A stretch of 64,000 bases of DNA, from contig MPMM01000003.1 in the NCBI GenBank assembly GCA_002238505.1, forward strand, positions 1-64,000, written 5' to 3'. The notes below the pieces were generated by a model, which saw only the letters and a list, made by a program, of their open reading frames with translations, was not told where the DNA came from and searched no databases. A program made the translations under genes and the position numbers. Positions 36,118-39,136 of this stretch are shown in pieces (position 1 is the stretch's first letter; every line of letters begins with the position of its first letter). Origin of the DNA: SAR202 cluster bacterium bin22. Its GTDB lineage: Bacteria; Chloroflexota; Dehalococcoidia; Lucifugimonadales; UBA3495.

Positions 36118-36561
36118 TTACAATTCTTTCACCATCTCTACGTGGGGAATGTCCACTTCAAGAAATACGTCACCCTGTTCGCGGTAGCCATGTTTGGCGT
36201 AGAAATTCTTGACGTAATCTTGAGCGTGGAGGAGGCAATGGGTCATTCCCCCGGCGCGGGCGGCTTCCTCAAGGCATTCCAGGATCATTCCGCCCACACC
36301 GTGCCTTCGCCACTCCCTTTCCACTGACATACGGCCCACGCGGCAGGTGCCTGCCGGGTCTCCTTCCACCACCAGCATTCTGCCGGTACCGATTACCTGT
36401 CCTTTCGAGACAGCGACAGCATGGGTAGCCGTGGAGTCAGCCTCATCCAGTTCTTCTTCGGCTGGAATTTGTTGCTCCACCACAAATACCCTCATGCGGA
36501 CGTTTATGGCGGCTTCCAGTTCTTCCTCGGTTTCTACCAGTTTGACGGCAATATCAGCCAC
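36118..36561 (-). CDS. GNAT N-acetyltransferase
   Basis: 147 residues from GTG 36561. The N-terminal part (VRMRVFVVEQQIPAEEELDE) matches the ElaA-like GNAT branch. The acetyl-CoA site is RVGRMSVEREWRRHGVGGMI, and HAQDYVKNFYAKHGYREQGD is the C-terminal signature. Acceptor unknown. AAGGA precedes the start. Confidence 0.88.
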   Translation of the reverse strand: MADIAVKLVETEEELEAAINVRMRVFVVEQQIPAEEELDEADSTATHAVAVSKGQVIGTGRMLVVEGDPAGTCRVGRMSVEREWRRHGVGGMILECLEEAARAGGMTHCLLHAQDYVKNFYAKHGYREQGDVFLEVDIPHVEMVKEL

Positions 36562-36657: not shown

Positions 36658-37857
36658 CTAACGGGCCAGGCCGTAGGCGATGGCCTTGAGGGCCGAATTA
36701 TCCGACTCGTTGAGCCTGGCTGCCACTTCGGCAATCAGCTTGCCGCAGGCGGTGCTACCCCAGAACCAGCGGTGCAGTGACTCCTCGTCGGCGTCTCGCT
36801 GTTGTTCCATGCGGGCTTCGTAAAGGAATGCCTTCAGGTCGTCGGCGCAGTAGCGAATGAACTGGTGCCTCGTCACGCCGTCGGGGCGTTCCGACATGTC
36901 GGCCTGTTCATCCCCTTCGGCGCATGACTCCAGGAAACGGACGACGCCCCGGAACCGTCTCTGCGGAATTCCGCTCAATCCCACTGCGGTGCGTCCACCA
37001 TTGTTTTCAACCCAACGCTCGTAGAACGCCCGCATCGCTGTAACTTCGTCGGCGGCGCTGCGAGTTTCTGGCGCGCTGGCCGAATCCACTTGGGAGGCTT
37101 GGGGCATGGCGGTGGGAGCGGAGTCATCAGGAAAGTCCACCAGTACCGGCCCTTCGGGAGACTTCAACATGTCGAAGGCTTCAGTCAAAACCTGGCGCTG
37201 GTACTTGGCGTCGTTTGGTTTTCCCAGGGCAAAGCCGAAGAAGAAGGGTACAAAGAGGGCACGGGGAGGCTTAACCCTTTCGGCGTGCTCCCTGACCATG
37301 GCGATAGTCACGGTAGCAATACCGTTCTCTTCAAAGACCCGGGCCAGCACACTCACGGTGTGGGTGCAAAGGGGTCAAGTAGGGGTCAGGAGGACGGCGT
37401 CCACACCTTCTTCCTTTAGTCTGCCGGCGACTTCGGGTCCGGTCTCTTCAATTACCCCGCTGGCATCTCGCAGAGCGCCCATGAAGGAATAGAAGTTGGC
37501 GGACAGGCTGCCCAACTGACCATTGCCAACCATCTCCCGCAACCGATCCACCGGAAAGGTGACGTTGAGGTCGCGGTATATGCCTGTGTGGTCGAAGCCA
37601 ATAGAGAAGTGGCTTTGAACCACATCTACCGGGTCGCAGTCGCTGGGGATCACGCGGTAGGAGTATTCACCGCCGGGATCGTCACGGTTAAAGGGCTTGT
37701 CGTCCCGCAGGTGAAGGCCCGCAGATGTTACAAGGGCGACCTTGCTCTGAGAAAGCGGCTTGCCCAGTTTTACCCAGGGCGTGGAGTCATGCTCCAGGCA
37801 GGGGAAAAATTCAAGGGTCCTGCGCTGCACTTCGCTCAGGGTATCCAGTCTGGGCAT
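36658..37857 (-). CDS. GrdB/PrdB-like selenoprotein (glycine/sarcosine/betaine reductase B family), Sec161 at UGA
   Basis: Read through one in-frame UGA (37375-37377), this is a single 399-residue protein. It starts MPRLDTLSEVQRRTLEFFPC with AAGGAG six bases upstream. VALVTSAGLHLRDDKPFNRD, SHFSIGFDHTGIYRDLNVTF and DRLREMVGNGQLGSL follow. The site reads VDAVLLTPT-[UGA]-PLCTHTVSVLARVFEENG, the U-x-x-C arrangement of GrdB and PrdB at the known selenocysteine position. Both halves are in one frame with no other stop. A hairpin (37348-37362) has its loop 18-22 nt after the UGA. Classical GrdB/PrdB reduce glycine, betaine or proline; members in aerobes lack partner subunits and their reaction is unknown. 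No grdA/E or prdA is nearby. Confidence 0.9.
37348..37374 (-). promoter_or_regulatory. SECIS-like hairpin after the GrdB-like UGA
   Basis: On the minus strand CACAC-CGTGA-GTGTG directly follows the UGA region, with a possible outward CC/GG extension across a small bulge. The apical loop CGTGA carries a GU and lies 18-22 nt from the UGA. Confidence 0.6.
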
Positions 37858-37988
37858 AACCGACTCCTTGCAAGCATCTAGCTATGAATTAAAGGTACCG
37901 CAGGTTTGGTACGATAGTTTTTTGGAAGCCGTTTCGGCAGTCATCCAGTGGACTGGCAGTTGTCCTTCAGGCGACTCCCGAAAGCGAG

Positions 37989-38046
37989 TCACCACCATCC
38001 TGCCTTCCTCCCTCAAGTAGGAAGGGACTTTGATCGGGCTCTTAGT
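37989..38046 (-). repeat. degenerate REP/MITE-end copy
   Basis: CACCACCATCCTGCCTTCC, then a stem around CCTCAAGTAGG, then GGGCTCTTAG. The order matches the right half of the MITE-like copy at 11463-11518 with about one base in five changed. It runs into the stop codon of the alcohol dehydrogenase. Confidence 0.6.
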
Positions 38047-39136
38047 TGAACATTATGGCCCCGCGTCCTATTTCACCGTCGTCCATGTCGCCATAGGCTT
38101 CGTTGATCTGGTCCAGGGTGTAGTGCCGGACCACCAGGTCGTCCAGGTTCAATTTACCGGACAAATAAAGGTCAACCATCGTAGGCATATCTGTCCGTGA
38201 CCGGGCGGAACCATAATAGGTGCCACGAAGGGTCTTTTCGTTCCGAACCAGGTCCACAGCATTGATGGGAGCTTCCGCGCCCGCGGGGGCAATGCCCACC
38301 ACGGTTACGGTGCCGCTCTTGGCGCACATATCGTAGGAGGCTTTGACGGTTTCGGCCGAGCCGAAGACCTCGAAGGTATAGTCGGCCCCCCGCCCGCCGG
38401 TCAGTTCCTTGACCTGGGCAACGGGGTCCCGATCTGCGGCGTTAACCGAATGGGTGGCGCCAAATTTCATGGCAAATTCCAACTGACTTTCGCGAATATC
38501 AACGGCGATGATCTGAGAGGCATTCAACAGCCTGGCGCCCATGATCACATTTAGGCCCACGCCACCGCAGCCCACCACGGCGACCGTGCTGCCGGGCTGG
38601 ACTTTGGCGCTGAACATGGCTGCTCCCACGCCGGTTGGGACGCAGCAACCTATCATGGCCGCCTTGTCCATGGGAAGGCCGGCGCTGGTTGGAATGCAAC
38701 CGGTTTCGGGAACTACGGCATACTCCGCAAAACAGGCTACCTTGCCCATGTGGTGAATGTTCTGGTCACCCTTGCGCAGGCGCGTGGTCCCGTCCAGCAT
38801 GAAGGGTCCGGTGGCCATATGCAGGTCGCAGACGTTGGAGTTGCCTTCGAGGCATGACTTGCACCGGCCGCAGGCTGGAACAAAAGAAAGGATGACCTGG
38901 TCACCAGGCTTGGTAAGGGAAACGCCCGGCCCCACTTTTTCGACGGTGCCCGCACCCTCGTGGCCCAATACGGCGGGGAGAGCAATGGCAGCGTCCCCAT
39001 GCATAAAGTGCCGGTCGCTGCGGCAAACGCCGGCGGCTCCAATCTTGACCAGTACCTCACCGGCCTTGGGTTCGTCCAGATCCACGTCTTCAACCACCAG
39101 GGGTTGACCATACTCGTACAAAACGGCAGCCTTCAC
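38042..39136 (-). CDS. zinc-dependent alcohol dehydrogenase (MDR superfamily)
   Basis: 364 residues from GTG 39136, with AGGAGG upstream. The catalytic zinc site uses Cys38 (GVCRSD) and LGHEGAG with His59-Glu60. The structural zinc site is Cys89, Cys92, Cys95, Cys103 (ACGRCKSCLEGNSNVC). The NAD fold is VAVVGCGGVGLNVI. The overall form matches class III / S-(hydroxymethyl)mycothiol-type dehydrogenases, which handle thiol adducts of aldehydes; other primary alcohols are possible. Stands alone. Confidence 0.9.
   Translation of the reverse strand: MKAAVLYEYGQPLVVEDVDLDEPKAGEVLVKIGAAGVCRSDRHFMHGDAAIALPAVLGHEGAGTVEKVGPGVSLTKPGDQVILSFVPACGRCKSCLEGNSNVCDLHMATGPFMLDGTTRLRKGDQNIHHMGKVACFAEYAVVPETGCIPTSAGLPMDKAAMIGCCVPTGVGAAMFSAKVQPGSTVAVVGCGGVGLNVIMGARLLNASQIIAVDIRESQLEFAMKFGATHSVNAADRDPVAQVKELTGGRGADYTFEVFGSAETVKASYDMCAKSGTVTVVGIAPAGAEAPINAVDLVRNEKTLRGTYYGSARSRTDMPTMVDLYLSGKLNLDDLVVRHYTLDQINEAYGDMDDGEIGRGAIMFN

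Follow-up and report, generated by a model that had tools for sequence, protein, structure and literature searches.

A selenocysteine-containing PrdB-like protein with an added C-terminal domain in SAR202 bacteria: sequence features, genomic context and possible function

Introduction

In PrdB and GrdB systems a pyruvoyl partner first activates the amine of the substrate, which is then attacked by the selenolate (PMC10838667, PMC13188914). The B subunits of glycine, sarcosine and betaine reductase (GrdB, GrdF and GrdH, respectively) share with the protein considered here the selenocysteine (Sec)-containing, C-terminal portion of the family. Selenoproteins of the PrdB type rank among the most frequent Sec proteins of ocean metagenomes, where they are usually labelled proline reductase: in the Sargasso Sea survey, 42 PrdB-type UxxC selenoproteins make up the third most abundant family (PMC1088965), and the GOS survey gives 235 Sec and 110 Cys sequences of this type (PMC2398784). 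These proteins (Sec UxxC, pfam07355) probably belong to the same broad group as the protein considered here; in the accessible portions of the two surveys they carry one family label, with no separate Sec-only long form and no function beyond proline reductase (PMC1088965, PMC2398784). The abundance of PrdB-type Sec proteins in the ocean has been on record since 2005; the family itself is therefore not new, and the discovery is less new than an earlier, sequence-only reading of this DNA had implied.

The reductive defluorination of fluoroacetate has been assigned, from transcription and genome comparison, to an operon with a GrdB-like Sec protein (PMC10838667), which makes chemistry at an activated C-X bond plausible for the PrdB/GrdB superfamily. 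FarB from Cloacibacillus resembles the protein described below in being a Sec protein of the GRDB superfamily, one proposed to attack a C-F bond and with a transporter in its operon, and differs from it in being GrdB-like, in having as companions the GrdE-like FarE and a radical-SAM protein, and in its origin from a rumen anaerobe (PMC10838667).

The window, that is, the whole stretch of DNA analysed, comprises 64,000 nucleotides (contig MPMM01000003.1, positions 1 to 64,000) from SAR202 cluster bacterium bin22, whose genome assembly (GCA_002238505.1) measures 4.39 Mb and is 97% complete. SAR202 is one of the common uncultured groups of the ocean. Literature on SAR202 with selenocysteine, or on DehI or GcvH with selenoproteins, yielded nothing on the long-form system; as far as the literature examined shows, no published description exists of the Sec-only clade of long forms, of its C-terminal domain, of the lack of PrdA throughout the genome, of the version with UAG or of the operons of haloacid type.

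The Gene and Its Selenocysteine Codon

The long-form PrdB-like gene occupies positions 36658..37857 of the minus strand (399 codons plus TAG, by direct reading and from its orthologues), and a Shine-Dalgarno-like AAGGAG lies ahead of its ATG (37864..37869, minus strand, direct reading). Translation table 11 splits this stretch into two ORFs, 37375-37857 (160 residues) and 36658-37356 (232 residues); the full minus-strand translation holds a single in-frame TGA, codon 161 (37375..37377), in the context LLTPT-U-PLCTHTVSVL, where Sec161 is the first residue of a U-x-x-C motif completed by Cys164 (37366-37368, minus strand). The sequence-only reading had joined the two frames through this UGA into one protein of 399 residues, with coordinates and length that prove exact, and had placed the UGA at the Sec site of the PrdB/GrdB family (LLTPT-U-PLC), as the U-x-x-C motif confirms; the decay of the downstream half, which it had named as an outcome that would speak against it, is not seen, both halves and the stop being conserved among orthologues.

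The genes selB and selC had been singled out in that reading as a check, and the Sec machinery is indeed found in the window genome, with selA (542 bits), selB (348 bits), a tRNA-Sec with anticodon UCA, and selD (386 bits; C57:40142-41065). Within the order, 79 of the 147 genomes searched contain a match, and every near-full-length orthologue has exactly one in-frame TGA; among 84,980 species genomes scanned, 59 loci were recovered, all of which have a recoded stop at the Sec161 codon (TGA in 58 and TAG in one, from Modestobacter) and none of which, among these close homologues, has Cys there. The comparison of Cys with Sec members that the earlier reading had suggested can accordingly be drawn only with the shorter relatives, among which alone Cys was found, the long-form clade being without Cys members. 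As a separate observation, the selD gene of the window genome has an in-frame TGA of its own.

UAG takes the place of UGA at the Sec site in two Geodermatophilaceae, Modestobacter and a second genome; in Modestobacter, the one of the two that was checked, a gene of the tRNA-Sec family with anticodon CUA is present, labelled tRNA-Pyl by ARAGORN owing to its anticodon, so that the codon at this site follows the Sec tRNA. The switch from UGA to UAG at the same residue amounts to a natural test of the Sec assignment. Across 115 Geodermatophilaceae genomes, the internal stop of the long- and short-form matches is TAG in seven and TGA in two. UAG-encoded Sec is already known in this family for other proteins, namely formate dehydrogenase, UGSC and AhpC (Mukai 2016, cited in PMC5330540); the present case shares with these the UAG at the Sec site and the CUA tRNA, and PrdB-like members are not among the proteins named in the accessible part of that source (PMC5330540). 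Two Geodermatophilaceae matches, L212 and L213 (genomes G1006 and G1005), have TGA where their relatives have TAG and may mark the boundary of the UGA-to-UAG switch.

A hairpin like a bacterial SECIS, already noticed downstream of the UGA in the sequence-only reading, spans positions 37343..37367 of the minus strand (apical stem CACAC/GUGUG, loop CGUGA). Folded as a single sequence it is only modestly better than shuffles (z -1.64); in the alignment of 57 sequences, which are related, so that cell counts are not independent events, 94.1% of the cells are paired, and the covariation is 0.265, compared with 0.117 for shuffled alignments (0 of 500 reach the observed value) and at most 0.087 for slid controls. 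Compensatory changes occur in two column pairs, neither with a broken pair: 16-30 (CG/AU, 48:9) and 19-27 (GC/AU, 33:24), and in both the 3' partner falls on a third codon position at which the change is synonymous (AGU/AGC and GUG/GUU, respectively). Judged from these genomic data, Sec161 bears all the marks of Sec decoding and the window protein is a genuine Sec protein.

Protein Family and Domain Structure

The PrdB-like α/β core (residues 24-241; 37135..37788, minus strand) matches TIGR04483 (E 1e-45) and GRDB (E 4e-12), and the model of the protein has an overall pLDDT of 87.9. With Pfam GRDB (PF07355) the score is 46.5 bits, above the gathering cut-off of 22, which places the protein within the family; the alignment runs from residue 24 to 160 and covers model positions 212-347, i.e., the last 136 of 347. 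The best profile is PrdB, TIGR04483, whose equivalog cut-off of 300 bits is not reached (156 bits). The protein shares with PrdB the U-x-x-C motif and a core of some 210 residues (34-38% identical to that of true PrdB), and differs from it in having about 160 extra C-terminal residues, in falling below the equivalog cut-off, in its separate clade and in the lack of PrdA and PrdC beside its gene. Compared with GrdB, GrdF and GrdH, it is without the N-terminal half, has no PF09338 partner and scores 48-60 bits against cut-offs of 602-800 (TIGR01917, GrdB: 48 bits, cut-off 602).

The C-terminal extension (residues 250-399; 36661..37110, minus strand) is mainly helical, has a pLDDT of 91.9 when modelled alone, and is conserved in all long forms while not being found in PrdB (about 240 aa). 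Fold searches with the full model and with the C-terminal domain alone returned only common α/β or helical-bundle matches (Z under 8) and no convincing PDB match; among them there was neither a solved PrdB/GrdB structure nor a thioredoxin fold, and a PDB sequence search with the window protein had no match. The earlier description as a complete GRDB-family protein therefore has to be corrected, since the protein lacks the N-terminal half of GrdB and has an unrelated C-terminal portion: going by these profile matches, the protein is PrdB plus a new C-terminal domain, and not a full GrdB.

Distribution of the Long Form

The 59 loci of the species-wide scan belong to SAR202/Dehalococcoidia, Entotheonella, Rokubacteria/Methylomirabilota, Eremiobacterota, another member of the Chloroflexota and two actinobacteria; in the class of Pseudonocardia, two of 395 genomes gave matches, one of which is a long form, and a tblastn search of plasmids returned true PrdB operons and short forms only. 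In a core-domain tree, built by a quick method with SH-aLRT support values, all 40 long forms group together (95), true PrdB and GrdB-type proteins lie on another side (97), and the short forms lie between. The long forms, which use Sec alone and carry the additional helical domain at the C-terminus, make up a clade of their own.

The window genome also encodes a short-form PrdB-like paralogue (C53:154880-155515; 39% identity, one TGA), next to which lies a cation/proton antiporter-like gene. Three long-form PrdB-like genes, with one TGA each, stand in tandem in genome G528 (L162:8505-13248).

Absence of the Pyruvoyl Partner

The sequence-only reading had noted that no reductase partners are adjacent to the gene; this is upheld (GrdA, GrdC and GrdD were not seen beside it either) and extends to the whole genome, as PF09338, the family of PrdA and GrdE, has no match in the 97%-complete assembly. 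PF09338 is missing from 16 of 21 genomes tested, and all 16, the window genome and 15 others, hold the long form. Four SAR202-order genomes (G091, G110, G079 and G128), which encode GrdB-length Sec proteins and have six to eight PF09338 copies each, serve as an internal positive control for the search. In these same four genomes the GrdB-length Sec proteins are paired with PF09338 genes (e.g., at L190, L192 and L196), which represents an expansion of B proteins of the glycine/betaine-reductase type in SAR202. The true prdB of Enterococcus gilvus sits with prdA and prdC. Since PF09338 is missing from the genome, the label of proline reductase does not fit; with the activating partner gone, the whole Sec-only clade cannot work as a proline reductase in the usual way, and the earlier view that classical Stickland reduction is probably not at work here gains support from the finding of a genuine Sec protein in a genome without the pyruvoyl partner.

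Genomic Neighbourhoods

In the window, an NDMA-type zinc alcohol dehydrogenase gene (38042..39136, minus strand; TIGR03989, 385 bits, cut-off 440) lies 184 bp upstream of the long-form gene on the same strand, and is found upstream in nine of 11 compared loci, as a conserved neighbour only in the family of the window; downstream lies a GNAT acetyltransferase gene (36118..36561, minus strand), conserved as a neighbour in the closest relatives only. Elsewhere in SAR202 the neighbours are mostly unrelated, and no conserved operon was found in the group beyond the alcohol dehydrogenase of the window's family; MFS and luciferase-type genes are neighbours in one SAR202 family (f19), and VOC (glyoxalase-family) genes lie downstream in two groups, with no clear function emerging from these. 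A sulfopyruvate-decarboxylase-like gene near several loci was considered and dropped, its position being probably due to chance in genomes rich in such paralogues.

Outside SAR202 the context differs, as far as can be said from few lineages and from a pattern noticed after inspection. In the two Geodermatophilaceae, the gene order is a solute symporter, a HAD type II haloacid dehalogenase (185 and 181 bits; cut-off 125.4), DehI (37 and 34.7 bits, only just above the cut-off of 28.9), the long form with UAG, and GcvH (155 and 143 bits; cut-off 115.85); Pseudonocardia nigra has the order DehI, the long form with UGA, GcvH and a dihydrolipoamide dehydrogenase. The H-proteins beside the actinobacterial long forms keep the ES-x-K motif of the lipoylation type. 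In a member of the Chloroflexota (G243), one HAD type II gene lies directly upstream of the long form and another is convergent downstream; the product of the latter is 72% identical to the HAD type II protein of Modestobacter, the selenoproteins of the two being only 45% identical. The short-form paralogue of Modestobacter likewise has a HAD type II gene directly upstream. Above its cut-off, DehI was found in three of 73 genomes, each of which lies outside SAR202 and has the long form; the 66 SAR202-order genomes gave no such match, nor were homologues of HAD type II, DehI or GcvH detected beside SAR202 long-form genes, that of the window included.

Several minor features of these loci may be recorded. 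The dihydrolipoamide dehydrogenase of Pseudonocardia (L123:8705-10086) appears as two overlapping frames, from a frameshift or an assembly error. A second DehI gene of Modestobacter (L202; G539:C128:57094-57534) follows an MFS transporter gene, an arrangement also seen at the selenoprotein locus of Pseudonocardia. An OsmC-like gene with an in-frame UGA (L169:7300-7857) lies two genes upstream, in one same-strand run with a HAD type II gene and a long-form PrdB-like gene.

Proposed Function and Alternative Explanations

The reading that we tentatively favour, while holding it with less than even confidence, is that of a Sec enzyme of the PrdB superfamily which works without a pyruvoyl subunit and would catalyse the reductive cleavage of an activated C-X bond. 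The selenolate of Sec161 would attack a carbon, probably α to a carboxylate, that already bears a good leaving group, a property of the substrate that would make the Schiff-base activation by PrdA unnecessary; on departure of the leaving group a selenoether would form, Cys164, as a resolving-type residue, would attack the selenium, freeing the reduced carbon and leaving a Se-S bond, and this bond would be re-reduced by a cellular thiol system, in Actinobacteria probably the adjacent lipoyl H-protein, with the addition of dihydrolipoamide dehydrogenase in Pseudonocardia. A haloacid has its leaving group already, and could therefore be attacked directly by a PrdA-free enzyme; to judge from gene context, haloacids would be the best-supported class of substrates outside SAR202. 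The relatives in named actinobacterial strains give a concrete candidate function that can be assayed.

On the other hand, no homologue of HAD type II, DehI or GcvH was detected beside the gene in SAR202, the neighbours being mostly unrelated; members of HAD type II can act on other substrates, the DehI scores are marginal, and the precedent, FarB, has a GrdE-like partner that the window protein lacks. Because no dehalogenase is found near the SAR202 gene and none of the 66 SAR202-order genomes tested has DehI above its cut-off, the haloacid reading is not extended to the window by that route: the enzyme of the window itself may act on a haloacid or on another C-X compound, a haloacid being a doubtful choice taken singly. 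About as doubtful is the full proposal, a Sec-dependent reductive dehalogenase (or C-X reductase) of a single subunit that would act on small α-substituted acids without pyruvoyl subunit, corrinoid or iron-sulfur cofactors, would be fed by a lipoyl H-protein in Actinobacteria and would be widespread in SAR202; if true, it would provide a corrinoid-free route by which aerobes and a dominant lineage of the dark ocean could remove halogens or similar groups.

A possible but rather doubtful alternative is a general oxidoreductase for thiol-disulfide exchange or for the handling of peroxides, with no carbon substrate, in which U-x-x-C would be used as in Sec thioredoxins and peroxiredoxins. The motif is that of many redox selenoproteins (PMC2398784), the lipoyl H-protein/Lpd context in Actinobacteria would fit a thiol relay, OsmC-like and CMD-family neighbours occur in two lineages, and the SAR202 gene, like housekeeping redox genes, has no fixed operon; however, the core belongs to a superfamily of substrate-reducing enzymes, the fold searches gave no thioredoxin-fold match, and the clade has no Cys version, whereas general redoxins usually have many Cys homologues (PMC2398784).

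Unlikely, to our judgement, is the reductive cleavage, without PrdA, of a C-N or C-S bond in a substrate that is already activated, such as a quaternary amine or a sulfonium compound. The profile of the betaine reductase subunit B (GrdH) matches the protein with 58 bits, and betaine needs no Schiff base. Quaternary amine and sulfonium compounds are, moreover, abundant in the sea. In betaine reductase, according to PMC10838667, GrdI is no pyruvoyl proprotein, which also speaks for this reading; against it, GrdH too works with a partner of the GrdE family, a family that the window genome lacks, and beside the long-form gene no recurring gene could be recognised as related to betaine or sulfonium compounds.

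It is very improbable that the protein serves the Stickland-type reduction of amino acids as a subunit of D-proline or glycine reductase: the TIGR04483 match and the identity to true PrdB over the core point towards it, but the score is half of the equivalog cut-off, the genome is without the PF09338 family while true PrdB accompanies PrdA and PrdC, and both the clade and the C-terminal domain set the protein apart from PrdB. That the UGA is a true stop, as the standard code would have it, and the locus a pseudogene or a pair of separate genes, is next to impossible, since the position of the stop, the downstream half and the hairpin are kept across phyla, and UGA gives way to UAG in Geodermatophilaceae, of which Modestobacter has a tRNA-Sec-like gene that reads UAG.
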